Source: a virus. From it: a stretch of DNA of 29,374 bases. The stretch lies in IMG/VR virus record IMGVR_UViG_3300042520_002364, positions 1-29,374 of that record. One strand, 5' to 3'. A program made the translations under genes and the position numbers. Below are positions 14,294 through 28,478 of this stretch, in pieces; positions within the stretch are counted from its first letter, which is position 1, and every line of letters begins with the position of its first letter. The notes under the pieces are model-generated. The model had not been told where the DNA came from, made no database searches, and saw only the letters and a list, made by a program, of their open reading frames with translations.

Positions 14294-14651
14294 GATAGAT
14301 GTTCTCTCTCTCTTTATATAAATGTTTGATTTACTATTTACACCTAAGCCATAATCTATGCAAGCTAAAAAACTGACAGACTATATAATTGATTTCGCTC
14401 GTGTCTAAGCAGTTGATTTTATTACTCGAAAAACTGACAGACTAAGGGTATATATTATATTCAGTTGTCTCTCTCCTCTCCTCTTCAATTTCGTTATTAC
14501 TAGAAGTTGACGTTTTTCTAAGTAGTTGATTTTATTACTAAAAATATTTATCATTATCTTCGTAACTTATTGATTTTATTACTAGTTTTCAAACACATCA
14601 TTTTCCATGACTAATCACTCGGCAATTTTTTAAGAAAAACGAGGTTTTTCC
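14294..14651. repeat. 358-bp non-coding region with direct repeats, after the large terminase gene
   Basis: No ORF is convincing here. TTGATTTTATTACT occurs at 14413-14426, 14526-14539 and 14570-14583; the first two belong to a 23-nt repeat with one mismatch (14404-14426 and 14517-14539). AAAAACTGACAGACTA occurs at 14368-14383 and 14429-14444. A pyrimidine-rich tract (14465-14485) and very AT-rich segments are interspersed. The arrangement suggests iteron-like binding sites, a replication start or a packaging-related locus; none can be proven. Confidence 0.6.
14545..14552 (-). promoter_or_regulatory. Late-promoter-like element (GATAAATA) in the repeat region
   Basis: The minus strand reads ATGATAAATATTTT, the same TGATAAATA core seen before the tail-tube gene. 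It would give the 138-aa gene a leader of about 245 nt that includes two of the three TTGATTTTATTACT repeats. Confidence 0.45.
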
Positions 14652-14653
14652 TC
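14634..14653 (-). terminator. Terminator of the large terminase gene
   Basis: On the minus strand GAGG-AAAAA-CCTC is followed by GTTTTTC, a short hairpin with U tract whose first arm overlaps the terminase stop codon (14652-14654). Confidence 0.55.
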
Positions 14654-16211
14654 AAAGCACCATAAAAGGTATTGCTTCATCACTTTCATCTAATGGAGTG
14701 TCAGGTCCAAAGCTATTTACCGCTGGGTTATAATCTTCGGCATTATATTCATATAACAACTTTCTAGCTTTGTCATCAAACTCACTTACATGCTTTAGCA
14801 ATCTAATAATAAGTAATAATGCAGACACACTGTCATCAGTAGCTCCAATCTTAGCGGCATAAGAACCACCTGAAGCAATAAAGTTCTTAAGTTCAAAGAT
14901 ATTGATTTCAGACCTTATCTCCAATCCGTTCTTTATCTTTTCAACCATAGACTTTAGTTGAAGACAAGCGAGGATTTTGTTACGATTTGTTGTTTGCATT
15001 CCTAACTTGCCAGGCACATCATTGATAAGTTCGGCATACTCAGGTGGATGTTCATCGGTATTATAAAGAGCACCAATAGCTTCACCAACTCCATTTCGTT
15101 CAAATGTCCAGAATACTTCAGGTCGTTTGTTATTCATAGTATGACTTGACATTTTGTTTAGTAACCACTTTATTCTATCATATAAGTCAGGTATGTTTAG
15201 ACTATTAGTTCGAAGCTCAGCAACTTGAATAAGTGATGGAAACTCAAACACTTCAACAACACTGTAATCTCGACCCGAACCCGTTGCAATATCAACACCT
15301 ACAAGATAAGCAGCATCAGCACGAATGTTTTCCCAGAAAGAAAAGCCCTTGTCAATAAAGATTGGTTGTTGATGTCTAAGTTCGATAAGACGTTGTGATT
15401 GGATAAGAAGAGCATCAGAAGAAAGGAATTCGCAATCAAGTTCTACTCGTACAACAAGTTCCCCTAGTTTTGCAAGCATTTCTTCTCGATAACCAGATTC
15501 AGGACCACGTTCAGGATGTTGAGTATAATGAGCAAAAGTATGACTAAAGCTGTTTAGACCTGCAAGACATTCTCTCCACAATCTAGCAAACAAGTCAGTA
15601 TCACCATTAGGAGTAGTTGTCATAATCAACTTACCACCAGTTGAAAGAGCCGGAGCAATTGAAGCCCAAATCTTTTCTTGGATACGAGTTGAAATAAAGC
15701 TAATCTCGTCAAGCATTAGAATTGATGGTGAATTACCACGACCAGTTTTTTCTGTAGTTGCTTGTGATTTGATGATTGAACCATTGTCAAATTCGATTGA
15801 TGTACGATTGTAGAACTTGACTCCAGGCTTCAACCAATTTGGAAGCTCTTCATATGCAAATTTGATTTTGGCCATGATGTCTGTAGCATGGTCCATGTTC
15901 TTAGATGCTATCACACATGCTTGGTCATCAGTAAAAGCAGAAAGCCAAAAGATGTAGATTGCCGCAGTAGTTGTCTTACCAAGCTGGCGAGACATTAGTG
16001 CTAACGTATCTTTGTTATTGTGAATTGCTAGAATGAATTCTTCTTGATAGTCAAACAGCTCAAATAGAACCGTACCTTTAATAGCATGCTGAATTTTGAC
16101 ATAGTTTTTGATGAAGTATATCGGGTCATTCATACACTTCTCAAGTTCTTGGATTTGCCAAGCTTCGTATTCAGTTTCTGTATTCGCTCGCTTTAGATAA
16201 GGATTTGCCAT
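14652..16211 (-). CDS. 17: Terminase large subunit (T4 gp17-like)
   Basis: A 519-aa DNA-packaging motor ATPase and nuclease. ATPase motifs: SRQLGKTT (Walker A, 74-81), ILMLDEI (Walker B, Asp168 and Glu169) and TTTPNG (coupling, 198-203). RNase H-like nuclease residues: VGVDIAT (Asp317), Glu391 in FERNGVGE and the ATDDS motif (Asp469/Asp470). It is shorter than T4 gp17 (610 aa) but complete. Unusually, it is separated from the small terminase by the 10-kb paralog array and has its own late promoter. The leader forms a 13-bp hairpin that ends 2 nt before the ATG, and no Shine-Dalgarno sequence is visible. A terminator follows. Confidence 0.95.
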   Translation of the reverse strand: MANPYLKRANTETEYEAWQIQELEKCMNDPIYFIKNYVKIQHAIKGTVLFELFDYQEEFILAIHNNKDTLALMSRQLGKTTTAAIYIFWLSAFTDDQACVIASKNMDHATDIMAKIKFAYEELPNWLKPGVKFYNRTSIEFDNGSIIKSQATTEKTGRGNSPSILMLDEISFISTRIQEKIWASIAPALSTGGKLIMTTTPNGDTDLFARLWRECLAGLNSFSHTFAHYTQHPERGPESGYREEMLAKLGELVVRVELDCEFLSSDALLIQSQRLIELRHQQPIFIDKGFSFWENIRADAAYLVGVDIATGSGRDYSVVEVFEFPSLIQVAELRTNSLNIPDLYDRIKWLLNKMSSHTMNNKRPEVFWTFERNGVGEAIGALYNTDEHPPEYAELINDVPGKLGMQTTNRNKILACLQLKSMVEKIKNGLEIRSEINIFELKNFIASGGSYAAKIGATDDSVSALLLIIRLLKHVSEFDDKARKLLYEYNAEDYNPAVNSFGPDTPLDESDEAIPFMVL

Positions 16212-16213
16212 AT

Positions 16214-16249
16214 AATATAGATATTAGAATAGTAATTAATATCTATATT
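16214..16249 (-). promoter_or_regulatory. 13-bp hairpin at the large terminase start, overlapping its late promoter
   Basis: Arms 16214-16226 and 16237-16249 are perfectly complementary around a 10-nt loop. On read-through RNA the hairpin ends 2 nt before the terminase ATG and should obstruct initiation. The late promoter (16246-16253) starts RNA near 16240, inside the 5' arm, so its transcripts could not form the full stem. Confidence 0.65.
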
Positions 16250-16253
16250 TATA
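16246..16253 (-). promoter_or_regulatory. T4 consensus late promoter (TATAAATA) for the large terminase
   Basis: The minus strand has an exact TATAAATA, 35 nt ahead of the terminase ATG and just after the last array gene. It gives the terminase expression independent of the long upstream operon. Confidence 0.65.
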
Positions 16254-16256
16254 TTC

Positions 16257-16958
16257 TTATAATTCAGCATATTCATCTAAATCCTTTTCAATTAGTTCTC
16301 GTTGACATGCAATAAAGTCTCTATTACCATTTAAATGTTTATTTAGAATACTAAGAGCTTCTTTACATGATTCACTTTCGTCATTTACATCCCCCGTAAA
16401 TGCATATACATCTGTTAAAGTTGGAATCTTTAAAAATGATAAAATAGGTCCAACATAATTAGGATTTATTCTTATTGTTTCTGCATCCAAAATATGTTTA
16501 TGAATATTTGAAAAAGAAGCATTTACAAATGCCTCTAGTTGTATTTCTCCATTAGGACAATATTTTGGAAAATTCTCAAAAGATGTAATTTTACGATACT
16601 TAAAAAGATGATATGTTATAAAAACATCCCTATAATCTGATTTACATACTAATTTTTCAGGAAAGTTTTTGAATGATTTTAATTTTTCTAAACGCTCCAA
16701 AATCATATATTTTGCATTTCGGATTTTGAATGGGAATTCACCATTAGCATCTAACATTTCATCATAAATTATAAGAGTTCCTAACTGACAATCAACTATC
16801 CCAGATGCAGATATTTTGAAACCGTGCAAAGAGTTTTTCTTTGGGTCATTCGGTATAAGTTCTTGACTTGCCCAATCATTTAATAGGTCTCGAATACGTT
16901 GAACGTATTCGCTATTTGAAGCCGTGTCTTCTTGTAAGTATTGTTTAAAGCTCTGCAT
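16257..16958 (-). CDS. Array paralog 14 (class A), putative internal head protein
   Basis: The last array gene, 233 aa from the ATG at 16958; an in-frame ATG two codons earlier is possible. The start MQSFKQYLQE|D lies within the YAE codons of paralog 13 (14-nt overlap). Leader L-Q-E fits a prohead-protease site at residue 10. The class A middle contains HGFKI, an MLDANGEFPFKI segment, SFKNFPE and ITSFENFP, then SFSNIHKHI and VGPILSFLKI. The C-terminus is ACQRELIEKDLDEYAEL. Closest in plan to paralogs 1, 3, 4 and 5 by pattern. A late promoter and the terminase follow, with no terminator between. The internal-protein role is inferred. Confidence 0.82.
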   Translation of the reverse strand: MQSFKQYLQEDTASNSEYVQRIRDLLNDWASQELIPNDPKKNSLHGFKISASGIVDCQLGTLIIYDEMLDANGEFPFKIRNAKYMILERLEKLKSFKNFPEKLVCKSDYRDVFITYHLFKYRKITSFENFPKYCPNGEIQLEAFVNASFSNIHKHILDAETIRINPNYVGPILSFLKIPTLTDVYAFTGDVNDESESCKEALSILNKHLNGNRDFIACQRELIEKDLDEYAEL

Positions 16959-17619
16959 ATTCATCTAAATCCTTTTCAATTAGTTCTCGTTGACAAGCTA
17001 CAACATTTCTATCACCATCTAAATGTGTTCTGACAATTCGAATGGCCTCATTTAATTTATCGTATTTTGCTAATCTAATACTATTAGAAGAAAACCAAAC
17101 TTGAGTTGGATGAGGTATTTGTAATAATCCTAATAACCCTCCATTAAAATACTCCATTTGATAAATGTGAATCGCATCACATTTTACTAGCTTTTTGATA
17201 TTTGTAAAAACTGTATCAACTTGAACATTGATAGACAATAAATGACAAACTACTTGAAATGGAAGTAATCTATTCAATCCTATATTACAATTAGCCGAAA
17301 ACTTATGATGATTAATGACATGCGCAAAGTTCATTTTATACTCAGAGCAAACTGCTTCCATAATCTTACCATGCAAATCAAACTGAGCTTTTTCAGATTT
17401 CAACCAATTACTATCAGGGTCTATAATAACTACAACAAAACCTTCAGTGCTTACATCTTGAAGTGAAAACTTAAAGCCTTTCAACACTGGTGAGACTATA
17501 CCACGAACTTTTGCTGAAGTTATGTCTGTTATAGGATTTCCTGGAAAGTAATAACAACATTCAAGATAAACTGAATTCTGAGTTTCACCTTCTTGCAAGT
17601 ATTGTTTAAAATTCTGCAT
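16945..17619 (-). CDS. Array paralog 13 (class C), putative internal head protein
   Basis: This 224-aa member starts MQNFKQYLQE|G, a leader very close to the T4 capsid-targeting sequence, with L-Q-E at residues 8-10. The start is inside the tail codons of paralog 12 (14-nt overlap). The class C middle, shared only with paralog 2, has LECCYYFPG, a VLKGFKFSLQDVS segment, SPDSN / DPDSNWLKS and HGKIMEAVC. The shared C-terminal half has FTNIKKLV and GGLLGLLQI, then ACQRELIEKDLDEYAEL. Class C members lie 11 genes apart, which argues for movement of the middle module between positions. Confidence 0.83.
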   Translation of the reverse strand: MQNFKQYLQEGETQNSVYLECCYYFPGNPITDITSAKVRGIVSPVLKGFKFSLQDVSTEGFVVVIIDPDSNWLKSEKAQFDLHGKIMEAVCSEYKMNFAHVINHHKFSANCNIGLNRLLPFQVVCHLLSINVQVDTVFTNIKKLVKCDAIHIYQMEYFNGGLLGLLQIPHPTQVWFSSNSIRLAKYDKLNEAIRIVRTHLDGDRNVVACQRELIEKDLDEYAEL

Positions 17620-18274
17620 ATTCGTCTAAATCACGTTCAATTAGTTCTCGTTGACAAGCTACAACATTTTGACGTTCAGGATTCAAATGCTTATTGATAA
17701 CATACATCCAATGCAATTCATGATAATCTGATGTTGATAAGTTGATTGCTTTACCTTTCTTAGCTAACCTAATAATGCCTAATGCCTTTCCGGTAACGTT
17801 TTCACAATTACGAATATATAAGTTTCTAAAAGAAGATATAATTTTATCAATTCCGGATAATGAAGATTTATTTTCTACATTTACATAAACAGTATCATAT
17901 GAAATTGGAATTGAAAGTTTAGGAACCTCATGTGAAAAGAATAGATTAACATGGTGGTCTTCATGATTTTCTCGATAGTTAGAAGAATCACCTGCAAATT
18001 CATTCAATACGTCTAAAACATTTTCACGATAATTATCAAAAGCATCAACATTTTTATCTTCAATCAATAATTTAATAGAAAATGAAATAGTACTAACTAA
18101 TATAATACTATCAGTTCCAGTCTTTTCATTGATAAGTTTTTTGAACTGTTGCAAATTTGCTTTCATCTTCTTACATAAGTCAGTCAATCCGCTAAATTCT
18201 AATGTAAGCTCTATCATATGATTTTGTTTTAACTTTGGAATAGCTTCGTGTTCAAATAGTTCTTTTACTTTCAT
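17606..18274 (-). CDS. Array paralog 12 (class B), putative internal head protein
   Basis: A 222-aa member starting MKVKELFE|H, with L-F-E at residues 6-8. Its ATG shares one base with the stop of paralog 11 (TAATG). The class B middle (MIELTLEFSGLTDLCKKM, then FKKLINEKTGTDSIILV, FDNYRENVLDVLNEFAG) is clearly related to paralog 8 and more distantly to paralog 7. The C-terminal half contains LSGIDKIISSF, ENVTGKALGII-[RK]-L and ACQRELIERDLDEYAEF. It lacks the leucine-rich SFKNFP segments of class A, so the array is not simply a repeat-protein family. Function unknown. Confidence 0.83.
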   Translation of the reverse strand: MKVKELFEHEAIPKLKQNHMIELTLEFSGLTDLCKKMKANLQQFKKLINEKTGTDSIILVSTISFSIKLLIEDKNVDAFDNYRENVLDVLNEFAGDSSNYRENHEDHHVNLFFSHEVPKLSIPISYDTVYVNVENKSSLSGIDKIISSFRNLYIRNCENVTGKALGIIRLAKKGKAINLSTSDYHELHWMYVINKHLNPERQNVVACQRELIERDLDEYAEF

Positions 18275-19212
18275 TAAAACTCCGCGTACTCGTCTAGGTC
18301 GTTTTCAATTAGATCACGTTGGCACGCAATCCTGTTGCGCCCTGCAAATATATGTTTAGTTAGAATTTTACCTAAGATAAGATCAACTTCTTGTGGTGGT
18401 TTTGTTTGTCGAACACCTTGTTCTAATCCTTTAATTTTCAAAATAGAAAGAACACCACTTTTAATAGTTGGGTCAAATTGTAACATGATGCCTATTCTTT
18501 TTACTAACTTATCTAAATTGTCAAAAGAAGTAATTTTTGCATTACGATAAATTTGTAGATTACCATCAATATCAGAAGCAATATGTTCTAATGATGATAA
18601 GTTTTTATTATCCCATATAGCTAAATTTGTTAATTTAGATGGACAACCTTCTAAAGATATTAGATTTTCATTGTCACTTATCATCAAATGTTCAATTGTT
18701 GGCGGACAACCTTTTAGGGAACGAATTGAAGATTTAAGAACATTGAGATAAATTGTATCTTTTGGGAATTCAATTTGAGTTAAGTCAGGGCCCATTTCTC
18801 CAGATAATATAATTGTTTTATTTTCTTCTTTCTTAGCTAATTTTTTTTCAGCTATGTCTTTCAGCTTTTTTAAACAGTTGATATAACGAACATATAGATT
18901 AGGAACGGGAATAGGCGAATTCATCTTAGTGGCTCTATCAGCATGTGCTGCCTGAGCTCTTATCTGTCCATTAGAATAAATCGAATAATCCATAGTTCCA
19001 TTTTTCAACTTGAATGTTAAAGTTCCGTTTTTTAGTTTTATAGCAGAACTGATATCAAATGTTTTTGAAAGTATTTCTTTATATTCGTTTGATTGTTTGA
19101 CTTTATTTAGAGTATCAGCTAAATCAACCGGGTCAATAGGCGGCAAATCTTTAACAGCAGGTATCGAAACACCGGCTTCTTTTAGTAATGGAAATAGTTC
19201 ATTTAGTTTCAT
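18274..19212 (-). CDS. Array paralog 11 (class D, leucine-rich), putative internal head protein
   Basis: The longest member, 312 aa, starting MKLNELFPLLKE|AG, with L-K-E at residues 10-12. It overlaps paralog 10's stop by one base (TAATG). The N-terminal part (ISSAIKLKNGTLTFKLKNG, YSNGQIRAQAA) resembles paralog 9. The centre has clear leucine-rich repeats of about 20-22 residues: SLKGCPPTIEHLMISDNENL, then SLEGCPSKLTNLAIWDNKNL, SLEHIASDIDGNLQIYRNAK and SFDNLDKL. The C-terminus is GVLSILKIKGL then ACQRDLIENDLDEYAEF. Leucine-rich repeats usually form protein-binding surfaces, so a host or phage partner is likely (inference). Confidence 0.85.
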   Translation of the reverse strand: MKLNELFPLLKEAGVSIPAVKDLPPIDPVDLADTLNKVKQSNEYKEILSKTFDISSAIKLKNGTLTFKLKNGTMDYSIYSNGQIRAQAAHADRATKMNSPIPVPNLYVRYINCLKKLKDIAEKKLAKKEENKTIILSGEMGPDLTQIEFPKDTIYLNVLKSSIRSLKGCPPTIEHLMISDNENLISLEGCPSKLTNLAIWDNKNLSSLEHIASDIDGNLQIYRNAKITSFDNLDKLVKRIGIMLQFDPTIKSGVLSILKIKGLEQGVRQTKPPQEVDLILGKILTKHIFAGRNRIACQRDLIENDLDEYAEF

Positions 19213-19937
19213 TAAAACTCCGCGTAATCGTCTAGATTATTTTCAATTAGTTCTCGTTGGCAGGCAATAGCATTTTTTTCGTCTGTTTGTAAATGGTTAT
19301 AGACTATTCCAATTGCTTGGCGAAGTTCATTAGAGTATTTAGCTCTTTCAGTTGCTGGATATGAAATAGTTCTCAATCCTGGTATCTTTAGCAAGCCTAA
19401 TATAGAATTAGTCAAAGTATGCGGAACGACAATTTCACCATCACCTTGTCTATTAGGTCTTATTTCTTTGATGACTTTGTGAATGCCACTCAAAGAAGTA
19501 ATACCAGTTCCACGAAGTATATATGAAGAAGCTCTTTCAGGAAAATAATCAAGTGATGTGATTTCTGGATTGTTGCTAATGCTAAAACGACCACCCACGA
19601 TTTTAGGACATCCTTTCAAAGAACCTAAACTACAATTTGCTATAAAGAAGTTCCTTTCTATTTGTCCAAACTGACATGGCAAATAACGAAGATGAGTTGA
19701 ACCATTAATACGTGGCAAACATTCTTCATCACCAGATAATAACACAGCCGTAGCATTTACAATACCATAATCATACTTTGCATTTTCAAAGTTGCCAGGG
19801 TCTAAATCTTCAATGTTATACTTCTTTAGAACTCGATGACCATTTCTAGTAATCCAGTCGATAATATCTTCTTCCGGCCAAAAGTCGAAATCGTTGTTAG
19901 CCTGTTCTTTTAATAAGTATTGTCTAAAACTCTGCAT
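19212..19937 (-). CDS. Array paralog 10 (leucine-rich), putative internal head protein
   Basis: I choose the ATG at 19937 (MQSFRQYLLKE|Q), which lies inside the tail codons of paralog 9 and gives 241 aa; an upstream in-frame ATG at 19958 would extend the overlap without adding a sensible leader. L-K-E falls at residues 9-11. The middle has leucine-rich segments (SLGSLKGCPKIVGGRFSISN, ITSLDYFPERASSYILRGTG, ITSLSGIHKVI). The end is ILGLLKIPGL and ACQRELIENNLDDYAEF, one of two members with LDD instead of LDE. The MQSF leader with an LRR body shows that leader type and body class assort independently. Confidence 0.82.
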   Translation of the reverse strand: MQSFRQYLLKEQANNDFDFWPEEDIIDWITRNGHRVLKKYNIEDLDPGNFENAKYDYGIVNATAVLLSGDEECLPRINGSTHLRYLPCQFGQIERNFFIANCSLGSLKGCPKIVGGRFSISNNPEITSLDYFPERASSYILRGTGITSLSGIHKVIKEIRPNRQGDGEIVVPHTLTNSILGLLKIPGLRTISYPATERAKYSNELRQAIGIVYNHLQTDEKNAIACQRELIENNLDDYAEF

Positions 19938-20850
19938 AATCATCCAAGTCGTTTTCAATTAGTTCACGTTGACATTTGATAGCACTTCGTTCACTAGAGA
20001 ATAAATGCTTAGAAACAATTTGAGCAACTAAACCAAATTCTCCATCTTCTGTTTTTCTACCATTTATAGTAAATGCAATTGAAGTACAATCTTTTACTTT
20101 GAAAAATGCTAAGACCCCAGTTTTGACTGGCGGTAAAGTAAATCCTTGACACCTCGGAATATGCTTATGAACGTCAGAGAATGAAGTGATTGGATTACCA
20201 TACGCTTGAATAAACTGAGCATGCTTTGGAAATCCTTCAAAAGATGTTAGCTTATTATTAGCAGCATTAAACAATCTACATTGTTCAGGACCACCAACTA
20301 AAGGCGAAGTCAGTTCATTGTTGTTACAATAGAAATCCCCACCTACTGAGAAATCCCCCGCCGCATTAAGTTCAGGTGCTCCTTCTAAGGTTGTAAGATT
20401 ATTGTAAGAACAATTGAAGTTTGAAATCTTATTTGGATAAATTCTGCCTTTTAGCGTAGTAAGACTAAGATTACGCACATCATCTTTAGCATTCTTTAGA
20501 CGTTTTGCAAACCAATTCACAAAATGGGTATGTATTGTATCTAAACAGTTCAGATACATTTGTAATGAACCGTCTGGACCCGCACCATAACCCGCTTTAC
20601 CCCAAATAGAGGCGTAAGAATTTTTGACTTTGATATCACCTGCATAATTGACAAAGTATTCTCGTGGTTCTTTTAGATAGGTATCTTTAGTCACTATTTG
20701 CAAAGAACCATTCTTTCTTTGTATTTTCGTGGAGTTCAAGTCAAAGTACTTCGAGAAGTCCTTAAACTCTGGAGTTTGTTCTAATTGGTCAATGACCGCT
20801 GAATAGTCTGCACCTTTAGATGCTTCATTTAACAATTCTGATATTTTCAT
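19924..20850 (-). CDS. Array paralog 9 (class D, leucine-rich), putative internal head protein
   Basis: A 308-aa member starting MKISELLNE|A, with L-N-E at residues 7-9, matching the T4 prohead-protease consensus including the following Ala. It overlaps paralog 8 by 4 nt (ATGA). The N-terminal region (FDLNSTKIQRKNGSLQIV, VNYAGDIKVKNSYA, LQMYLNCLDTI) is related to paralog 11. Leucine-rich segments follow (NFNCSYNNLTTLEGAPEL, FYCNNNELTSPLVGGPEQ, NAANNKLTSFEGFPKH). The end is SFSDVHKHI, GVLAFFKVKD and IKCQRELIENDLDDYAEF, with Lys in place of the usual Ala before Cys. Confidence 0.85.
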   Translation of the reverse strand: MKISELLNEASKGADYSAVIDQLEQTPEFKDFSKYFDLNSTKIQRKNGSLQIVTKDTYLKEPREYFVNYAGDIKVKNSYASIWGKAGYGAGPDGSLQMYLNCLDTIHTHFVNWFAKRLKNAKDDVRNLSLTTLKGRIYPNKISNFNCSYNNLTTLEGAPELNAAGDFSVGGDFYCNNNELTSPLVGGPEQCRLFNAANNKLTSFEGFPKHAQFIQAYGNPITSFSDVHKHIPRCQGFTLPPVKTGVLAFFKVKDCTSIAFTINGRKTEDGEFGLVAQIVSKHLFSSERSAIKCQRELIENDLDDYAEF

Positions 20851-20902
20851 AGTTCTGCGTACTCGTCTAAATCCTTTTCAATTAGTTTTCGTTGACATGC
20901 AA
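20842..20902. repeat. 61-nt junction block identical to 24838-24898
   Basis: The block spans the tail of paralog 8 and the first codons of paralog 9, and is identical base for base to the paralog 2/3 junction although the flanking genes differ in class. Identity at synonymous positions points to recent exchange or duplication. Confidence 0.85.
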
Positions 20903-21482
20903 TGACATCACCCGAGTTTAAATATTTTAAAACAATGTTAGCCCATTCAGGATTTGGAGTATTGATTTTTATTACTCCATGTTTTGCTAACTTTATCAAA
21001 CCCAAAACACCACCTGTAATATTCTCAGAATTATTGATTTCTAAATAACTAAAATCTTTTATTATTTTATGAATACCAGATAATGAAGTTTTATTAAGGT
21101 TCTGAATAAAGATATTCGGAAACTCAATTGGTATTGGTAATGAAGGAACCTGTTTGTCAAATGTTAAATGAACTATATGCGACCCTGAATCTTCACGAAT
21201 TTCAGTGATATCAAAAAACGCTTTAAGAACAGCATTGACATCATCTATGTAATTCGCAAAATCATTCACCTGATGTTCTGGAACTTCAAGGCTAATATCA
21301 AATGTACCTTTACCAACTTGAATAATTGAACTCAATCCGGTTTTTTTGTCAATAGCATCAGTTATCTTTTTAGGATTTTCATTGAGTTTTGTTAAAGTAG
21401 TAGTTAGAGCATTATACGACAGCCATAAGTCTATAAAATAATCTTTTCTAACTGAGGTTTCAAATAGTTCTTTTATTTTCAT
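20847..21482 (-). CDS. Array paralog 8 (class B), putative internal head protein
   Basis: The shortest member, 211 aa, starting MKIKELFE|TS, with L-F-E at residues 6-8 and a one-base TAATG overlap with paralog 7. The class B middle (IDLWLSYNALTTTLTKL, ITDAIDKKTGLSSIIQVG, FANYIDDVNAVLKAFFD) aligns with paralog 12. The C-terminal half is LSGIHKIIKDFSYLEINN, ENITGGVLGLIKLAKHG, then ACQRKLIEKDLDEYAEL. The last 56 coding bases equal those of paralog 2, a class C gene, so the tail has been exchanged independently of the body. Confidence 0.84.
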   Translation of the reverse strand: MKIKELFETSVRKDYFIDLWLSYNALTTTLTKLNENPKKITDAIDKKTGLSSIIQVGKGTFDISLEVPEHQVNDFANYIDDVNAVLKAFFDITEIREDSGSHIVHLTFDKQVPSLPIPIEFPNIFIQNLNKTSLSGIHKIIKDFSYLEINNSENITGGVLGLIKLAKHGVIKINTPNPEWANIVLKYLNSGDVIACQRKLIEKDLDEYAEL

Positions 21483-22138
21483 TAAAATTCCGCGTATTCG
21501 TCTAAGTCTTGTTCAATCATTTCACGTTGACATGCAACTATATCTTGATTTTCTGATTTTCTATAACTAGTAATAATTTTAACCCATTCAACAGTTTTAA
21601 ACTTATTACCCCAATCTGCATTATTTAGAATGAGTTTGCCTTTGATTTTCAATAACCCTACAACACTATCGCTAATCATATTAGCATATTCAATTCTAAA
21701 TAATTCATCTGCTTTAATAAGTTTATCAACACCTGCTAATGAAAGAGCTGTATTACTATTTGAGTTCAAATAGATAACCGGCCATTCAATTGGGCTATTT
21801 GGCATATTGTCAATAAAGACAATAGGAAATGATGAACCTTCGTTATAAGGGCTTTTATCGATTTTGTTAAAGCTTTCGACTACTTCGCGAACTCTTTCTA
21901 ATTGATGTTCAATATTAGTTTTGTTGAATGGAAGTTTTCCGTTCAAAGTTATTCGTACTTGGTTACTTGATGATGGTTTATCGACAAGTTTAACTTTTAC
22001 GCCAGTAAGATTAGCTTTAATCAAAGCATCTCGAATAGCAATTACTTTTGGTGCAAAATGTGTTTCAAACGATAACTTTATTTCAAAAGTATCGGTTCTA
22101 TTACTTGTTGCTTCATTTAATAATTCTGATATTTTCAT
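21482..22138 (-). CDS. Array paralog 7 (class B-like), putative internal head protein
   Basis: A 218-aa member starting MKISELLNE|AT, with L-N-E at residues 7-9 and a 4-nt ATGA overlap with paralog 6. The middle (FEIKLSFETHFAPKV, IRDALIKANLTGVKVKLV, VRITLNGKLPF, LERVREVVESF) follows the strand-helix order of class B at lower similarity. The C-terminal half has LAGVDKLIKADELFRIEY and SVVGLLKIKG. The tail is the most diverged: ACQREMIEQDLDEYAEF, with Met in place of the first Leu of the LIE motif. Confidence 0.82.
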   Translation of the reverse strand: MKISELLNEATSNRTDTFEIKLSFETHFAPKVIAIRDALIKANLTGVKVKLVDKPSSSNQVRITLNGKLPFNKTNIEHQLERVREVVESFNKIDKSPYNEGSSFPIVFIDNMPNSPIEWPVIYLNSNSNTALSLAGVDKLIKADELFRIEYANMISDSVVGLLKIKGKLILNNADWGNKFKTVEWVKIITSYRKSENQDIVACQREMIEQDLDEYAEF

Positions 22139-22776
22139 AATTCTGCGTACTCGTCCAGGTCGTTTTCAATTAGTTTTCGTTGACATGCAATCCAATCATT
22201 GGCTGTTTGATAACTATTTATGATAGATATAGCTTTTAATAAAGTATTATAACCTTCTTTCCATCTATCAGTTGAAGCAGTAGAAAGTAAAGGAATATTT
22301 TTCATCTTCAATACACCTAATAAGTTTGATTGAACTGATACAGGAACATAAATCTTACTGCAACTCTGAATATGTTTATGAATATCTTTGAATGAAGTGA
22401 TAGGATTATCAATCAAATCTAAAGAACCACTTATATTATAAGGAGCACCTTCAAGTGAAGTAATATTATTTTTATAACAATTTACAGCACCATGAACCGA
22501 GTTTGGAAAGTTTTTGAATGAAACTATTTGTCTATCTTCAATATCAAAATCACCTAATACTACGTCAAGTTTATATTTTAGTTCATATCCATTTTCAACT
22601 TTATCAGCGAAAGCTCCAAATGCCGTATCAGATTGCGATAAGTCTAATTTAGAATTAGCATATAATATGCCCATTTTATTTAGATTGATAGTACCTTGAG
22701 TAAGCATTCTCAATTGCTCTGCTACTTTATATGGTATTTGTTCTTCTTCCTGTTCAAACAATTCTTTTATTTTCAT
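22135..22776 (-). CDS. Array paralog 6 (leucine-rich), putative internal head protein
   Basis: A 213-aa member starting MKIKELFE|QE, L-F-E at residues 6-8, with a one-base TAATG overlap with paralog 5. After a helical N-terminal part it has three leucine-rich segments: IVSFKNFPNSVHGAVNCYKN, ITSLEGAPYNISGSLDLIDN and ITSFKDIHKHIQSCSKI. The end is NLLGVLKMKNI and ACQRKLIENDLDEYAEL. It shares SFKNFP with class A and the N-x-ITSLEG pattern with paralogs 9-11, so it looks intermediate between the two groups. Confidence 0.84.
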   Translation of the reverse strand: MKIKELFEQEEEQIPYKVAEQLRMLTQGTINLNKMGILYANSKLDLSQSDTAFGAFADKVENGYELKYKLDVVLGDFDIEDRQIVSFKNFPNSVHGAVNCYKNNITSLEGAPYNISGSLDLIDNPITSFKDIHKHIQSCSKIYVPVSVQSNLLGVLKMKNIPLLSTASTDRWKEGYNTLLKAISIINSYQTANDWIACQRKLIENDLDEYAEL

Positions 22777-23441
22777 TAAAACTCCGCATACTCGTCTAAG
22801 TCATTTTCAATTAGTTTTCGTTGGCACGCAATGGTGTTGCCATTAGGTAAGAATTCATTGAGAATATCAATTGCTCTTTCGAAATCGTCAATACTTTCAC
22901 TTGATATCCAAACAGTTTTAAGGTTTTTGATTTTCAAAAATCCTAATATCGGACTTGGCTTATTCCCAGAAATATAAATCTTATCAGCTTCTAAGATATG
23001 GTTATGAACATTAGCGAATGATAAATTTTGAGCTTCCCATAAATTCAATACTCCTTTGGAATACTTTGGAATACTTTCTAAAGAAGTAAGCTTAGGGAAA
23101 TTTACTCCCTCTAATTTTAGAGCATCAATCTTTGAGCTTTTAGGAGTTTCAATATACTCTGGAAAGTTTTTGAATGAAGAAAGTGCAGACGTATAAACGT
23201 GAATACATTTAGCTCGGGTAATCTTGAATGGAAGAGTTCCTTCTGGCGTTAGCATTCTTTCCGTAATTTGAAATTTTGGCATATTGCATGAAACTGTTCC
23301 ATCTTTAGCGACTACAAATTTGTCATAGTAATCATGCGGAAAAGTTTGCCAACTTCGCCATTCATCAATAATAGCAAGTACTTCATCCTTAGACATTTGT
23401 TGATTACTAGATGTTTGTTCAAATAGTTCTTGTATTTTCAT
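22776..23441 (-). CDS. Array paralog 5 (class A), putative internal head protein
   Basis: A 221-aa member starting MKIQELFE|QT, L-F-E at residues 6-8, with a one-base TAATG overlap with paralog 4. It is a close relative of paralog 1 along the body: Q-[QM]-[MS]-[ST] near 15, MLTPEGTLPFKITRAK near 64-80, LSSFKNFPE, LTSLESIPKY, LSFANVHNHILEAD, ILGFLKIKNL and NEFLPNG, then ACQRKLIENDLDEYAEF. The pair probably arose from a duplication with three different genes now between them. Confidence 0.84.
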   Translation of the reverse strand: MKIQELFEQTSSNQQMSKDEVLAIIDEWRSWQTFPHDYYDKFVVAKDGTVSCNMPKFQITERMLTPEGTLPFKITRAKCIHVYTSALSSFKNFPEYIETPKSSKIDALKLEGVNFPKLTSLESIPKYSKGVLNLWEAQNLSFANVHNHILEADKIYISGNKPSPILGFLKIKNLKTVWISSESIDDFERAIDILNEFLPNGNTIACQRKLIENDLDEYAEF

Positions 23442-24133
23442 TAAAACTCCGCGTACTCGTCTAAATCTTTTTCAATCAATTCGCGTTGACATGCAATGGC
23501 ATCTCGTTTAGAACTTGCTAAATGTTTATTTAGTATCTGTTGCCACTTATCACCATGGTCTGTAACTGAACTCAATCCATTTATCTTTAGAAATCCAAGA
23601 ATAGGACCTTTATACGGATATGGAAATTTAACACCTTCAACATAATCGATATGTTTATGAACATTTGCAAAAGATAGTTTCGGAAAATGAGAAAAATCTG
23701 CGGAACCATTAATATGTCGAGGCACACCTTCTAATGAATGAATATTAGGCCCTTTCATTGTGCTATTAACTCCGAATATGTTCAGCATTGTGCCATTACT
23801 ATTATTAAGAACTTTATCTGGAAAGTTTTTAAACGTTGTCATTGCATTAACACCATAAACATCAAGTGAAATACATGATATAAACTTGAATGGAAGCTCT
23901 CCGTTCTCAAACATCCATTCATAAAGTTTTAGATTTTCGCTCAAATGCTCTACACCATAACCTCCACCTTTATATGGAACTATTTTATATTTTCCGAATG
24001 GTGGATACCATGAAGAATATGTTGCAGCTTTTTCAGAAGCAATTTTGGTTCGCCATTTATGTATCTTAGCCATGATAGCAAATTCTTCCGGATGCTTCTT
24101 TACTGCTTCATTTAACAACTCTCCAATTTTCAT
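23441..24133 (-). CDS. Array paralog 4 (class A), putative internal head protein
   Basis: A 230-aa member starting MKIGELLNE|AV, with L-N-E at residues 7-9 and a 4-nt ATGA overlap with paralog 3. The class A middle includes IHKWRTKIAS, WMFENGELPFKFISC, MTTFKNFPDKV, IHSLEGVPRHING, and LSFANVHKHIDYV. The C-terminal half has GPILGFLKINGL and ACQRELIEKDLDEYAEF. It has an added Gly/Tyr-rich segment (WYPPFGKYKIVPYKGGGYG) near residues 42-60 not seen in the other members. Confidence 0.84.
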   Translation of the reverse strand: MKIGELLNEAVKKHPEEFAIMAKIHKWRTKIASEKAATYSSWYPPFGKYKIVPYKGGGYGVEHLSENLKLYEWMFENGELPFKFISCISLDVYGVNAMTTFKNFPDKVLNNSNGTMLNIFGVNSTMKGPNIHSLEGVPRHINGSADFSHFPKLSFANVHKHIDYVEGVKFPYPYKGPILGFLKINGLSSVTDHGDKWQQILNKHLASSKRDAIACQRELIEKDLDEYAEF

Positions 24134-24846
24134 AGTTCTGCGTACTCGTCTAAATCCTTTTCAATTAGTTCTCGTTGGCACTCAATGATGTTTCTTTTAC
24201 CTTTTAAATGTTCAGTAACAATAGCACAAGCTTTTTCTTTATTAGTTGTAGCATTTTGTAATGTTGGACCATTAATTTTTTGCAAGTTTGGTATTTTCAG
24301 AAAACTTAGTAATGGGCCAACATAATCACGGTCAATAGCAACAACAGAACAACTTTTGATATACTTATCAACATTAGAAAAATTCACTTTTTCTAGCATG
24401 CTCATATCAATACCACCCTGAACTTCTGGAGTAATTCCTTCTAACGAAGTGATATGATCATATCGTTCATCATTTGAATAAACCCCTCCAAAGTTAAGTG
24501 ACCAATCAAATCTTCCAAATCCTACTTTATTTCTATAATCTCTAAGTATTTCATTAGGAAAGTTTTTGAATGACTTAATTTTTGGAGTTCCAACTGATAA
24601 CTTATAACAACTATGGATTTTGATTGGTAATTCTCCATTTTCATCTAACATGTAGTTTCGAATTACTAATGCTCGTCCTTTATGAATAAGATGATTATCT
24701 GGGGTTAGCTCGAAGTGACCAAAAGCAGATTCTGAAAATTGCGGATTAGCTTTTATTTCTTCTCGCCATTGTTTAATAATGGCTCTAACTCGTTTTGTTT
24801 CTTCTGAAACTTTAGGTGCTTCTTGAAGTAGTTCTCGTATTTTCAT
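24130..24846 (-). CDS. Array paralog 3 (class A), putative internal head protein
   Basis: A 238-aa member starting MKIRELLQE|AP, L-Q-E at residues 7-9 followed by Ala, a textbook T4-type prohead-protease site. It overlaps paralog 2 by 4 nt (ATGA). The class A middle has IIKQWREEI, FGHFELTPDN, YMLDENGELPIKIHSC, IKSFKNFPNEI and HITSLEGITPEVQG, then NFSNVDKYIKSC and VGPLLSFLKIPNL. The tail is IECQRELIEKDLDEYAEL, with Glu where most members have Ala before the invariant Cys. Confidence 0.84.
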   Translation of the reverse strand: MKIRELLQEAPKVSEETKRVRAIIKQWREEIKANPQFSESAFGHFELTPDNHLIHKGRALVIRNYMLDENGELPIKIHSCYKLSVGTPKIKSFKNFPNEILRDYRNKVGFGRFDWSLNFGGVYSNDERYDHITSLEGITPEVQGGIDMSMLEKVNFSNVDKYIKSCSVVAIDRDYVGPLLSFLKIPNLQKINGPTLQNATTNKEKACAIVTEHLKGKRNIIECQRELIEKDLDEYAEL

Positions 24847-24898
24847 AGTTCTGCGTACTCGTCTAAATCCTTTTCAATTAGTTTTCGTTGACATGCAA
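24838..24898. repeat. 61-nt junction block identical to 20842-20902
   Basis: This copy spans the tail of paralog 2 and the first codons of paralog 3. The paralog 3/4 junction at 24130 matches the first 40 or more positions too. These blocks are the natural sites for unequal crossing-over within the array. Confidence 0.85.
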
Positions 24899-25514
24899 CG
24901 AGATCACGATTTTTTGATGATAAATATGTTTGAATAATGTTCCAAGCACTAGCTAATTCCGGGTACATTTTTCCGTTTATACTAAGTCTTACTGTAGTTG
25001 ACGGGTTAAGTTTCAATAAACTTAATAAGCCCCCACCTTTGAAATTATGAAAGTCATTTAATTGTAATTGGAAACAATCTAATACTTTATGTATTCCAGT
25101 AAATTTGATATCTGGAGTTATTGTCAATTTAAAGAACTCACATTCAACCGGAAAAGTTGGGATATAGTTACTATAGATATTACAAAATACTTGAAATAAC
25201 TGATTATTGATAACGTCAATATAATTTTCACCAATAGCATCACAAACAGCTTCCATTACTTTATCATGAAACTTGAATTGATTTGCTTTTGATTTTAGCA
25301 AATTACTATCAGGACTTTTTATTTTGATATTGAATGAGTGTTCGCTAACATTCTCTATTGAGTATTTAAATCCTTTTAAAAGATTATATACAGCTTTTCT
25401 AATCAATGTTTTAGAAAGTTTATCATAACCGTTAACTGTAAATGGAAAATAATAAACGCATTCTAATGTGCATTCTTTGACAGTATCTTCTGATAATAGT
25501 TCTTTAATTTTCAT
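24843..25514 (-). CDS. Array paralog 2 (class C), putative internal head protein
   Basis: A 223-aa member starting MKIKELLSE|DT, L-S-E at residues 7-9, with a one-base TAATG overlap with paralog 1. The class C middle (CTLECVYYFPF, NLLKGFKYSIENVSEH, IKSPDSNLLKSKANQFKFH, DKVMEAVCDAIG) is shared with paralog 13 only. The C-terminal half has FTGIHKVLDCFQL and GGGLLSLLKLN, then ACQRKLIEKDLDEYAEL. Class C lacks leucine-rich repeats and may be a distinct fold joined to the common C-terminal module. Confidence 0.84.
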   Translation of the reverse strand: MKIKELLSEDTVKECTLECVYYFPFTVNGYDKLSKTLIRKAVYNLLKGFKYSIENVSEHSFNIKIKSPDSNLLKSKANQFKFHDKVMEAVCDAIGENYIDVINNQLFQVFCNIYSNYIPTFPVECEFFKLTITPDIKFTGIHKVLDCFQLQLNDFHNFKGGGLLSLLKLNPSTTVRLSINGKMYPELASAWNIIQTYLSSKNRDLVACQRKLIEKDLDEYAEL

Positions 25515-26191
25515 TAAAACTCCGCGTACTCGTCTAAATCATTTTCAATTAGTTTTCGTTGGCATGCAACAGAATCTCCTTTTGGTAGATACTCATTGAT
25601 AATCTCTGCTGCTTCAGCTAATTTTCCATTTTCTGAATATAAGTGTCTAATTTCTTTAAGATTGACTATCTTTAGAAATCCTAACATTGGGCCAACATAT
25701 TCTTCATTTATAGAAATCACATCTGCAGCTAAGATATGTTTATGAACGTTAGCATATGATAGATTTTTTGCTCGTGATAATCTCGCGTGACCTCTACAGT
25801 ATTTTGGACATCCTTCTAAAGATGTAAGATGAGGGAAGCTAGGTGCTAACATGTCAAGACACAAAAGATTGCCAGAAATTCGATGTTCAATTTGTTCAGG
25901 AAAGTTTTTGAACGAAGAAAGATTATTTGCTCTAACTGCGACATACTTAGCACGAGATAACTTGAACGGAAAGGTTCCTTCAGGAGTTAGCATTTCATTC
26001 ACTATTTCTAGCTTATCAAGTTTACGTTCAGCAGAACCATCAGAAGCTACTTGGAAACCATGTATAGAATCACCATTGTTAAAACCTTCCTTTAGCCAAC
26101 CCTTATCAACCCAGTATTGAATTAACTCACGGACTTCTGGATTAGTCATTTGTTGAGTACTTGATGTTTCAAATAATTCTTTTATTTTCAT
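25514..26191 (-). CDS. Array paralog 1 (class A), putative internal head protein
   Basis: The first array gene, 225 aa, starting MKIKELFE|TS with L-F-E at residues 6-8. Its ATG shares one base with the stop of the small terminase (TAATG), so the array is translationally coupled to the packaging genes. The class A middle has IHGFQVASDG, EMLTPEGTFPFKLSRAK, LSSFKNFPEQI, LTSLEGCPKYCRG and LSYANVHKHILAAD, then VGPMLGFLKIVNL and ACQRKLIENDLDEYAEF. Closest relative in the array is paralog 5. Virion-internal localisation is inferred from the leader, not shown. Confidence 0.84.
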   Translation of the reverse strand: MKIKELFETSSTQQMTNPEVRELIQYWVDKGWLKEGFNNGDSIHGFQVASDGSAERKLDKLEIVNEMLTPEGTFPFKLSRAKYVAVRANNLSSFKNFPEQIEHRISGNLLCLDMLAPSFPHLTSLEGCPKYCRGHARLSRAKNLSYANVHKHILAADVISINEEYVGPMLGFLKIVNLKEIRHLYSENGKLAEAAEIINEYLPKGDSVACQRKLIENDLDEYAEF

Positions 26192-26664
26192 TAGTCTAAC
26201 GAATCCTTGTTTTTGTTACGTAACATTTCTAATATCTGATTTCTATCCGCGACAACGATGTTGTTCCCAGAAATATTTGTATTATTTCCAAATGGAATAA
26301 ATGGAGCAGTCTTTCTTTTGTCATTTTTAGTTCTTGCTTTAAGAGCCGTTGCATTCAACGCAGTATTGAGGTACTGTGCCGCCACTTCTGCATTCCTTGC
26401 AGCATATCGAGGTTCTACTATTTCAGTAAGTGCTGTTTGGTTTTCATAAGCATCCATAGCAGCTTCAAAAATACTCTCAATCTTATTGTTGATATCAATA
26501 TCTTCTGCATCATCTTGATATGATTGGGCAACCGTTTGTTGAGGAACAGCAATCATATCATCTTCATATGAAGATGATGAACTTGTAGTCATATCATAAG
26601 TTGAACCTGGTTCAATGTTGAAGATATCTTCAAGCGGATGTTTTTTTAGATTTTCTTTTATCAT
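26191..26664 (-). CDS. 16: Terminase small subunit (T4 gp16-like)
   Basis: A 157-aa protein with the layout of T4 gp16 (164 aa): an acidic, low-complexity N-terminus (SSSSSYEDD, DDAEDIDIN), a central helical oligomerisation core (YAARNAEVAAQYLNTALNATALKARTK, compare the T4 R-H-x-EV...T-T-N-x-x-x-L-x-LHK pattern) and a C-terminal NISGNNIVVADRNQILEML segment equivalent to the T4 NATVF-x-x-x-x-x-ELMDEI end. It would form the ring that recognises DNA and regulates the large terminase. The start overlaps the gp4-like gene by 35 nt, and the stop overlaps the first array gene. The large terminase lies 10 kb downstream, whereas in T4 the two genes are adjacent. Confidence 0.75.
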   Translation of the reverse strand: MIKENLKKHPLEDIFNIEPGSTYDMTTSSSSSYEDDMIAVPQQTVAQSYQDDAEDIDINNKIESIFEAAMDAYENQTALTEIVEPRYAARNAEVAAQYLNTALNATALKARTKNDKRKTAPFIPFGNNTNISGNNIVVADRNQILEMLRNKNKDSLD

Positions 26665-27205
26665 TTGTTGGCGCTCTTGTTATAGATGTCTTACTTGCAG
26701 TTTTCGGTTTTCTTGGTGCTACAGGTTTCTTAGTTCCATTGGCAGCTAGCTTTTTGACTTTTGGTGCTTTCTTCTTTGCAGTTCGTGGCATCATTCGATA
26801 GATATCAACTTCAGTGATGACCTTGAATTTCATTCCATTGACCTGGCAAAACCTTTCAGCGGCAATCCACTTCGCTTCATTGACCATAAGTGCAACTCTA
26901 TCATAAGCTGACTTAGCATGTTCAGCACTTGCTTCTTTCAACGGTTTTACTTCAACTATCCATCTTTCAACTTCTTGATTTGTATTTATCATCTCAAACA
27001 TAAAGTCAGGATAATACCGATGGACTCGTCCATCTTTTGGAGAAATGTAAGGTATTGCAACTTCTTCACTATTCCATCTAGTAACACTTATAGAACTATC
27101 AAAGAACTTCATGACAGTTAGTTCCCATGAAGAACGAAAGAAGATTTGAGCAGCATTTCCAAAATACTTTTGAGGATTGCGCGGAATAAAACGACCTTGA
27201 GCCAT
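26630..27205 (-). CDS. 4: Head completion protein (T4 gp4-like) with a basic tail
   Basis: A 191-aa protein matching T4 gp4 (150 aa), needed to complete DNA-filled heads before tail attachment. Shared blocks: RFIPRNPQKYFGN near the start, FRSSWELTVMKFFD (24-37), W-N-SEEVAIPYISP (44-56), RRYYPDF-like HRYYPDFMFE (63-72), and WIVEVKPLKE (82-91), which carries the nuclease-like E-x-K core. A 50-residue Lys/Ala/Pro/Thr-rich basic tail (about 140-191) absent from T4 gp4 is added; it could bind packaged DNA. It starts 4 nt after the upstream gene and its tail codons overlap the start of the small terminase. Confidence 0.87.
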   Translation of the reverse strand: MAQGRFIPRNPQKYFGNAAQIFFRSSWELTVMKFFDSSISVTRWNSEEVAIPYISPKDGRVHRYYPDFMFEMINTNQEVERWIVEVKPLKEASAEHAKSAYDRVALMVNEAKWIAAERFCQVNGMKFKVITEVDIYRMMPRTAKKKAPKVKKLAANGTKKPVAPRKPKTASKTSITRAPTNDKRKSKKTSA

Positions 27206-27209
27206 AATC

Positions 27210-28478
27210 TTATTCTTCTCTTATTTTCCTAAACATTTCATCAGATGTTTGAGTTCCTACTGGCGGTGAAGTTTTCCCCATGTTAGACACCGAGTCACTT
27301 ATCCATCGTCCAGCACTTGATGCTGAGTTAGAGATAGCTGAACTTAAACCGCCAGTTACACCAAATAAAGTATTACGAGTAGTATTGGTAATCTGACGTG
27401 AAGCTCCAAAGACAACATTTCGTGCTGCTTGTCCAAGAATTGGAATTTTGATGTTACCTACTATTCCACTTGCTACTTGATTGACTGCTCCTCCTACAAC
27501 ACCTGATAACACATTACCTAACCATCCTCCACCTCCACCAAATCCTCCAGGACCGGCACTATCACCGTACCAATGAGGAGAAGGAAAACCAATGTTTTGA
27601 ACTGGGATTTCTGGACTAAACATATCAGACCCTGGAGCAGCATATTCTGAACGACCTGTGACTTGTGTCGGTTGTCCAATTGACAAAGCATCATAATCAA
27701 ATCTTATAGTGGCATGGTTACCAACATCTCCACCTTCATTATCAGCAGAGTCATAAGAAATGTCAAGGATACGTGGATTGACAAACCAAAAAGTATTCAA
27801 TTGTGTAGCATGTCCAAAGTACTGAATAAGACGAATAGAACGAAATGGATTGATAGCATCATCAGGTAAAGCACCTCGCGCAGCAGAGTCAATCTGCGTT
27901 CCGTCACGTGATTTGGAAAAAGCCATACCACTGCTTTCCATCATAGCTAATGACTTTTCTGGTGTCCATGAACGAGCCGCTGGTGAATGAGCACGAAGAT
28001 AAGCAGCAAAGAACGCATGAAAAGTATCTGCGATATCGTCAATCAACGTCATTGACAAAGGTTCATGGTTGATTGTCTTCAAAACCTTTGTCTTATAGTT
28101 ATACATATTGACAGCTTCATAATCAAAGTTCAATTTAGGTCTATCAATATTTTTGATAACATATTGAAATACGTCTTTTCTTCCGCCTATCAGTTCAGTA
28201 AAGTTAGGATTCATTTCGAACAATACACGAAACATAAACCTATGTTTCGGTTGATACGTAATTAAATCCTGCGCATAGTTAGCAGGTCGCCATATTCCTT
28301 TTTGGTCTGGTCTAAAATGCGGGTCTAAACCTCCAAAACTCGAAGTCCTTGCGGTAATCATGTCAGAAAATGGAGCACGAGTAAACTGGTCGACCGCTGC
28401 TCCAAATTTGTTATAAGCTGCTTGTTCGAGCTGTATCCCTGCTCCACTGACTATTTTGCTAAAATCAATTGCTGACAT
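27210..28478 (-). CDS. Tail-tube-fold protein, possibly a baseplate tube initiator (gp54/gp48-like)
   Basis: A 422-aa protein whose first 270 residues have the tail-tube pattern seen in the gp19-like neighbour: PKHRFMFRVLFEM (77-89), IDRPKLNFDYEAVNMYN (110-126), a KVLKTINHEPLSMTLIDD segment (130-147) and a closing strand RFDYDALSIG (about 258-267). The C-terminal 150 residues are Gly/Ser-rich (GGFGGGGGW) with small hydrophobic segments. In T4 such tube-like folds occur in gp19, gp48, gp54 and the terminator gp3. The longer size and single copy suggest gp54 or gp48, but I cannot decide which. AAGGAA and a late promoter lie upstream. Confidence 0.68.
   Translation of the reverse strand: MSAIDFSKIVSGAGIQLEQAAYNKFGAAVDQFTRAPFSDMITARTSSFGGLDPHFRPDQKGIWRPANYAQDLITYQPKHRFMFRVLFEMNPNFTELIGGRKDVFQYVIKNIDRPKLNFDYEAVNMYNYKTKVLKTINHEPLSMTLIDDIADTFHAFFAAYLRAHSPAARSWTPEKSLAMMESSGMAFSKSRDGTQIDSAARGALPDDAINPFRSIRLIQYFGHATQLNTFWFVNPRILDISYDSADNEGGDVGNHATIRFDYDALSIGQPTQVTGRSEYAAPGSDMFSPEIPVQNIGFPSPHWYGDSAGPGGFGGGGGWLGNVLSGVVGGAVNQVASGIVGNIKIPILGQAARNVVFGASRQITNTTRNTLFGVTGGLSSAISNSASSAGRWISDSVSNMGKTSPPVGTQTSDEMFRKIREE

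Follow-up and report, generated by a model that had tools for sequence, protein, structure and literature searches.

The closest described relatives in working are the internal proteins (IPs) of phage T4. In IPIII a short leader acts in targeting chiefly through residues 4 and 7 and in processing through residues 8 and 10 (PMC9026906), the proteins Ip1-3 are injected and each blocks its own variant of the type IV restriction system GmrSD (PMC12373910), and T-even internal proteins have been described as highly diverse defence proteins in which the targeting sequence alone is conserved (PMC3012670). Here we analyse a 29,374-base stretch of viral DNA (the window), which is the whole of IMG/VR virus record IMGVR_UViG_3300042520_002364 and probably a fragment of a larger genome. 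At 16257-26191 it holds 14 minus-strand open reading frames (ORFs) in a row, and with moderate confidence we read this array, from its sequence, as encoding related but diversified head proteins that are loaded by means of a T4-type capsid-targeting leader.

The first-pass annotation of the window had described fourteen consecutive diverged paralogs with leaders of 8-12 residues that end in L-x-E and are often followed by Ala, Gly, Ser or Thr, and this description is borne out. All of the ORFs are present, their products form one family with pairwise identities of 24-52% (mean 33%) and bodies of 211-312 residues, the L-x-E leader is found in 14 of 14 members (Table 1), and one of the four named residues follows the leader Glu in eight of them. 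In the fifth gene (member 4) the leader requires translation to start at an ATG at 19937, the ORF caller having picked a TTG at 19958. Eleven alignment columns are invariant among the 14 proteins, ten of which lie in a C-terminal tail. For a wider view of the leader we collected 124 family ORFs and kept 112 after dropping 12 that were fragments, duplicates or matches to leucine-rich repeats (LRRs) only. Within this set, [LI]-x-E lies no more than 14 residues from the first listed Met in 71 members, and the number rises to 85 when any Met within the first 45 residues is permitted. Three controls gave lower frequencies: 42/376 among non-family ORFs of the contigs (66/376 with a later Met), an expectation of 10.5/112 from composition (at most 23 in any of 500 draws) and 6.4/112 for internal windows (at most 15 in any of 200 draws). 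Not every member has the leader, which is present in 0/3 members of one lineage (L019) and in 23/40 members (26/40 with a later Met) of a diverged phage, G013, described below.

Likeness to the T4 capsid-targeting sequence, also claimed in the first-pass annotation, holds position by position and in register. MQSFKQYLQE (F4, Y7, L8 and E10) and MQNFKQYLQE align without gaps to T4 MKTYQEFIAE, with aromatics at positions 4 and 7 and L/I-x-E at 8-10, while the shorter leaders MKIKELFE, MKISELLNE and MKFKQFLQE preserve the distances close to the cut and have one or two fewer residues at the front. Among the 112 members, the 10-residue register occurs 12 times, the 9-residue register 26 times and the 8-residue register 30 times. 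The accompanying statement that T4 IPI-III all start with MKTYQEF[IL]AE stands for IPII and IPIII, whose leader in the T4 record is MKTYQEFIAE, and fails for IPI, which begins MKTFKEF, has ITE at residues 17-19 and thus falls outside the 14-residue rule used here. In AlphaFold2 models of members 13 and 6, the leader block has the lowest predicted local distance difference test (pLDDT) value (73 and 57, respectively), most other blocks being above 90.

Positions 9611-29374 of the window are 99.995% identical to the start of a 118,937-base contig (G004), whose other end overlaps a 113,509-base contig (G010) at 99.96% over 26 kb, and we took the window and both contigs as one phage of ~215 kb by arithmetic. 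The three contigs hold 34 family members. Besides the 14 of the window there are groups of 13 at G004 20252-29076 and of three at G004 106075-107896, two genes that stand singly, and two members in G010. The extent first given for the array is therefore right for its 14 genes and understates the system. The first-pass reading had been made to depend on a gp21-type prohead protease elsewhere in the genome, and the overlapping contigs encode one (phrog_207) that has in common with T4 gp21 the motifs GELxHP and GVSSRG, which presumably hold the catalytic residues. Portal (phrog_213), scaffold-like (phrog_10922) and major capsid (phrog_138) genes are also present, and the family sits in a head and packaging context: 14 members lie between the genes for the small (TerS) and large (TerL) terminase subunits, and the three at G004 106075-107896 lie downstream of the protease gene, with one leader-bearing gene between, and ahead of the scaffold-like and capsid genes. 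We favour head loading because of the complete set of L-x-E leaders in the window, the family-wide enrichment over three controls, the in-register T4 match, the gp21-type protease and this gene context.

Several side observations concern the same contigs and the same protease family. Far from the head genes, G010 74811-75233 (L055) encodes another, shorter protein that weakly matches the gp21 protease family (30.3 bits). In the record of phage PA5oct, two genes bear the annotation head maturation protease, and mass spectrometry (MS) notes accompany each. A repeat of up to ~290 bases occurs at window 14365-14649, G004 4757-5039 and 92630-92922, and G010 37161-37451 and 88112-88268; its copies are 88-90% alike over the two longest matches, and the G004/G010 overlap ends in it.

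Two scans of viral contigs returned 39 and 43 loci, many from near-identical contigs; when 17 loci were compared with G004, 12 matched with 99.99-100% identity along the aligned length and five (L009, L015, L016, L024 and L033) had no aligned stretch above 400 bases. A search of relatives for the leader and tail motifs, proposed as a check in the first-pass annotation, does find similar arrays in other phages. In G013 (360,227 bases) we count 40 members, and the stretch 279,969-306,456 accounts for 34 of these; MKFKQFLQES is an example of its leaders and CQNELIDEDLEEFAKL of its tails. A further diverged phage, G015, has 12 members amid genes for sheath stabiliser, sheath, tube and head closure. 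Adding G014, G016, L019 and L009/L024/L033, our own grouping counts at least six lineages. Among bacterial and archaeal genomes, 248 pattern matches gave no confirmed relative. Family profiles were run against eleven phage-collection records, six without a match and five with a partial one: no family member was found in XacN1 or Phosso, nor at E 0.01 in RAS14, Atu_ph07, PA5oct or Serratia BF, and matches to part of the profile came from one Vibrio phage, three megaphage records and Vibrio phage phiKT1024. Searches of the phage collection with single members (tblastn) found nothing or the LRR-like part only. Near the head closure gene of G015, at 23893-27541 (L112 4893-8541), we also observed the leaders MITFKQFLTEE, MITFKQFLLEI and MMTFKQFLLEA, which closely resemble the T4 leader, on proteins without the family tail.

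A number of results weigh against head loading. One of them qualifies a feature in its favour, an L-x-E in the N-terminal part of the capsid protein, which reads L-M-E in the window phage, L-V-E in G013 and L-V-E in PA5oct at one alignment position; the L-T-E at which we assume the T4 capsid precursor to be cut, however, sits in an alignment stretch that these three proteins lack, and the distance from L-x-E to the shared [VI]QPM is 37 residues in the window phage versus 48 in T4. The sites are thus near each other and only possibly the same, and the placement of the capsid L-x-E outside T4's column lowered our confidence in head loading to its present, moderate level. In addition, the bodies are mostly acidic to neutral, with a family median isoelectric point (pI) of 5.8 and a pI above 8 in 14 of 112 members, versus 7.9-9.7 for T4 IPI-III after residue 10; the search for a promoter of the array found none; and the main G013 array (280-306 kb) is far from that phage's head genes (188-203 kb). 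The leader was also a poor predictor of virion proteins in two distant relatives, in each of which the comparison set consisted of our own ORF calls and not of annotated coding sequences. In PA5oct, with MS detection taken from the notes in the phage record, plain L-x-E occurred in 11/93 MS-detected proteins vs 34/316 other ORFs (p = 0.45) and a stricter form in 3/93 vs 4/316 (p = 0.20). A pattern derived from the family leaders, covering the targeting half and fitting 74 of the 124 family ORFs, did separate the two sets (9/93 vs 6/316, p = 0.0017), but two other patterns had been tried before it and the choice was post hoc. We applied it unchanged to a 150-kb stretch of phage CBB, whose virion MS is described in PMC5259590, and obtained 2/59 structural-labelled vs 2/96 other ORFs (p = 0.49) and 1/37 among proteins from one part of the MS table (p = 0.63); plain L-x-E gave 8/59 vs 13/96 (p = 0.59).

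Some of these results favour an alternative in which the array encodes a cytoplasmic set of LRR-type binders and the leader is an uncut docking helix for a phage or host partner in the infected cell. L-x-E is absent from 27-41 of 112 members depending on the Met rule; the tests of leader against virion content in other phages were mixed or null, and the G013 array stands away from the head genes. On the other side are the register of the T4 match, the presence of a gp21-type protease and the head and tail gene context in both the window phage and G015, and we consider the cytoplasmic alternative rather unlikely. As a separate observation on PA5oct, two adjacent MS-detected proteins at 260677-262099 (L132) have the leaders MRLNEINLIE and MKILEFNLTE and share a zinc-protease-like HELxHALD; they are possible leader-tagged virion enzymes.

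A different objection accepts the head and drops the host: the members could be core- or scaffold-associated proteins, acting as prohead assembly factors in the manner of T4 gp67 and gp68 or as filler of a large head, with no arsenal aimed at the host. Three members and other small leader-bearing genes do lie between the protease and scaffold genes, T4 gp67 and gp68 occupy a similar place between portal and protease, and in giant phages of the SPN3US type the inner head contains paralogs in very high abundance (PMC5694885). Nonetheless, assembly factors are unlikely to need 34-40 paralogs that have ~33% identity in the window and differ in their N-terminal parts, and the protease-to-scaffold interval of G013 contains no family member. 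We judge this explanation unlikely.

The C-terminal tail, typically IACQRELIEKDLDEYAEF, is the best conserved part of the 14 members, and it reads [LM]-I-E in every one of them. Codons for the same tail residue agree in 65% of pairs (875/1356) vs 57% expected, and in the ten closest pairs nonsynonymous divergence (dN) in the tail is 0.02-0.14 and synonymous divergence (dS) 0.36-2.23, two pairs having no dS value. Since synonymous codons vary nearly as codon usage would have them while dN stays low, the protein sequence is what is kept, and recent DNA copying is ruled out as the source of the likeness by the same values. We therefore describe a conserved tail under protein-level selection, and AlphaFold packs it as a folded helix. 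Member 13 (93-sequence alignment; mean pLDDT 93.3, predicted template modelling score (pTM) 0.88) has its tail in a helix with a block pLDDT of 98, and member 6 (26-sequence alignment; mean pLDDT 92.6, pTM 0.84) has values of 96 and 86 in its last blocks, so that in these models the tail seems to belong to the fold. Nothing resembling this element is present at the ends of T4 IPI-III.

The tail bears on a further alternative, that of propeptides at both ends with gp21 also cutting at the tail L-I-E. T4 Alt is cut near both of its ends (PMC5694885, PMC9026906), and the uniform [LM]-I-E of the window tails would suit such double processing. In the 110 members scored, however, the third position of L-I-E is Glu in 53, Asp in 54 and another residue in 3, so a conserved L/I-x-E near the C-terminus was not found, and the T4 leader is not processed when Asp occupies its processing position (PMC9026906). 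Given also the packing of the member 13 tail in its model, we regard cutting at both ends as very improbable. A C-terminal propeptide was rejected as a general feature, L-I-E giving way to L-I-D or L-Y-D in relatives; in some phages only, the tail L-I-E is a possible gp21 site.

Tail and leader meet at the gene borders. The 27 junctions examined in G004 comprise 13 overlaps of 14-20 nt, nine of 1 nt (TAATG) and five of 4 nt (ATGA), and the 13 in the window comprise three long overlaps, six of 1 nt and four of 4 nt. In the long overlaps, the DNA that encodes the tail YAE[FL]-stop also encodes, in another frame, the start of the next protein, for example MQSFK; one of 13 starts at such overlaps (G004 24438) lacks L-x-E. 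With borders of this kind, the array products would be made as one coupled set. The member that starts there (G004 24438-25100) begins MRSYNMSNGAQR, has LII in place of LIE in its tail and is possibly a decaying copy.

The bodies are predicted to be LRR-like, one of them with an extra ferredoxin-like domain. For the member 13 model, Foldseek matches in the PDB were weak (best E 1.0) and mainly LRR proteins, and VIA-align rows were mostly LRR proteins as well (best Z 7.7 over 129 residues, root-mean-square deviation 3.4), Z values of the size obtained here being ones that may mean only a common arrangement. Four BFVD models matched at E < 0.001, all from the A0A8D4G accession series. The best match of the family profile to PDB sequences was an LRR protein (E = 0.0007), and Pfam LRR_4 appeared at E = 0.7 only, in one of the 10 members scanned. 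The N-terminal part of member 6 is predicted to form a ferredoxin-like domain, for which the best Foldseek E was 0.0085 and VIA Z reached 6.9; the C-terminal part of this member would be LRR-like on the strength of the family alignment, the fold search having barely tested that part. Searches for function gave no match to PADLOC defence-system models in 14/14 members, and in the 10/14 members scanned nothing above the curated cut-offs of Pfam and no match to PF12699, the family of phiKZ-type inner-body paralogs. Positive selection on the bodies was not supported (dN 0.50-0.82 and dS 1.16-2.54 in the ten closest pairs). LRR-like folds commonly bind ligands, and tail fibre, receptor-binding or decoration proteins varying for host range would fit both this and the adjoining tail genes, but no fibre- or baseplate-type PHROGs family matched in the 5/14 members scanned and a leader of this type speaks for the inside of the head, which makes this the least probable explanation of all.

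Table 1. Array members and neighbouring features, with positions in the window.
Feature	Position	Strand	Length (aa)	Leader	L-x-E	Remarks
TerL gene	14652..16211	-				directly downstream of array; PHROGs and phage relatives
TATAAATA octamer	16246..16253	-				T4-late-promoter-like; between array and TerL; octamer count in window at chance level
Member 0	16257..16964	-	235	MNMQSFKQYLQE	LQE	last in transcription order; start possibly third codon
Member 1	16945..17619	-	224	MQNFKQYLQE	LQE	overlap with next gene
Member 2	17606..18274	-	222	MKVKELFE	LFE	
Member 3	18274..19212	-	312	MKLNELFPLLKE	LKE	LRR-like repeats; weak phrog_21719
Member 4	19212..19937	-	241	MQSFRQYLLKE	LKE	presumed ATG start
Member 5	19924..20850	-	308	MKISELLNE	LNE	LRR-like repeats; weak phrog_21719
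Member 6	20847..21482	-	211	MKIKELFE	LFE	ferredoxin-like N domain (model)
Member 7	21482..22138	-	218	MKISELLNE	LNE	
Member 8	22135..22776	-	213	MKIKELFE	LFE	
Member 9	22776..23441	-	221	MKIQELFE	LFE	
Member 10	23441..24133	-	230	MKIGELLNE	LNE	
Member 11	24130..24846	-	238	MKIRELLQE	LQE	
Member 12	24843..25514	-	223	MKIKELLSE	LSE	
Member 13	25514..26191	-	225	MKIKELFE	LFE	first in transcription order; LRR-like model, C-terminal helices
TerS gene	26191..26664	-				directly upstream of array; phrog_445 (E = 5e-5); one base in common with member 13 start
Head closure gene (T4 gp4-type)	26630..27205	-				same gene run; phrog_218
Tail-tube-like protein gene	27210..28478	-				same gene run; phrog_4542
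Tail tube protein gene	28620..29213	-				same gene run; phrog_4542

The gene run reads tail tube, tube-like protein, head closure, TerS, the 14 array genes and TerL. Among named phages, the best matches of TerL are T4-like jumbo phages (XacN1 40%, RAS14 38%, CM1 38%, Atu_ph07 38% and PA5oct 39%). The octamer TATAAATA, which we take to be that of T4 late promoters, stands 8-80 nt upstream of 10/207 ORFs in G004 (18 octamers in total) and of 8/129 ORFs in G010 (10 in total), some of these ORFs being the same genes where the two contigs overlap. Genes preceded in this way include those for TerL, the scaffold and the baseplate hub; none of the listed array genes in G004 or G010 is among them. The placement of the array genes in one tight run with terminase and tail genes suggests late expression. 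Two observations from this part of the work are recorded for themselves: a gene at G010 88785-89546 (L056) has the octamer upstream, the leader MGTSFKQYLHE and a weak nucleotidyltransferase match (E = 0.005, below the cut-off), and window 1865-2074 and 2079-2288 encode adjacent 69-residue paralogs that both begin MADTTYYVIH.

If the array is loaded into the head, the first 8-12 residues of each member would dock on the prohead core as a short helix, and once the shell is complete the gp21-type protease would cut after L-x-E, removing the leader and leaving the folded body in the head with the DNA. The C-terminal helix would, judging by the models, be a folded part of the body and not a second propeptide, its sameness giving the members an end that either caps the repeat or touches a partner common to them all. 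Delivery into the host is likely provided that loading holds, and the bodies would then probably leave the head together with the DNA and enter the next host; there, more speculatively, LRR-like faces that differ between members may each bind their own host target, defence enzymes being plausible candidates. The T-even precedent suggests that the array could serve in counter-defence, a role that we offer as a guess by analogy. As a broader and tentative proposal, one we ourselves think doubtful, some T4-related jumbo phages may deliver 30-40 differing LRR-type binders with their DNA, each with the same kind of tag, the same folded end and a variable binding part aimed at host defence or takeover; at many gene borders tag and end partly share DNA read in two frames, which would let the array lengthen or swap members with both ends still correct. 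In effect, such phages would possess their own equivalent of a variable receptor repertoire. Head-delivered proteins could in that case form a large, expandable arsenal (34-40 candidates on one scaffold), leader plus conserved tail would be a sequence rule for finding such arsenals in uncultured phages, and many natural folded cargoes would become available for T4-type protein delivery. The loading rule is known; among the papers listed by searches of open literature, no title or abstract opening describes such an array. Relative to those papers the new features are the member number, the LRR-like scaffold that members share, their conserved folded end and the junctions read in two frames.

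Comparison with described systems places the family nearest to T4 IPI, IPII and IPIII, with which it has in common a short leader whose targeting positions hold aromatic or aliphatic residues, an L/I-x-E end, a gp21-type protease and several genes per phage. It differs in that the T4 proteins Ip1-3 are three in number, of 95-193 aa and pI 7.9-9.7, and have only the leader in common (PMC12373910), whereas the present family comprises 34-40 homologous LRR-like proteins (40 in G013) of lower median pI with a shared folded C-terminal end. Because the bodies are mostly not basic, we liken the family to the T4 IPs in working and do not file it as an IP. T4 Alt is likewise a head protein with a gp21-cut propeptide, and members of the window phage have L-x-E or L-I-E at both ends; the tail site, however, is not kept in relatives, and Pfam found no Alt-like domain in the 10/14 members scanned. 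The paralog families A and B of SPN3US and phiKZ-type phages are also multi-member head proteins, with up to 20 members (PMC5694885), but family A there corresponds to PF12699 and the proteases cut after A-x-E or S/A/G-x-E. LRR proteins such as internalins, those of SDS22 type and the FNIP-repeat proteins of giant viruses resemble the family in predicted repeat fold, to which, despite weak structural matches in the PDB, the window family adds a C-terminal helical end and a leader.

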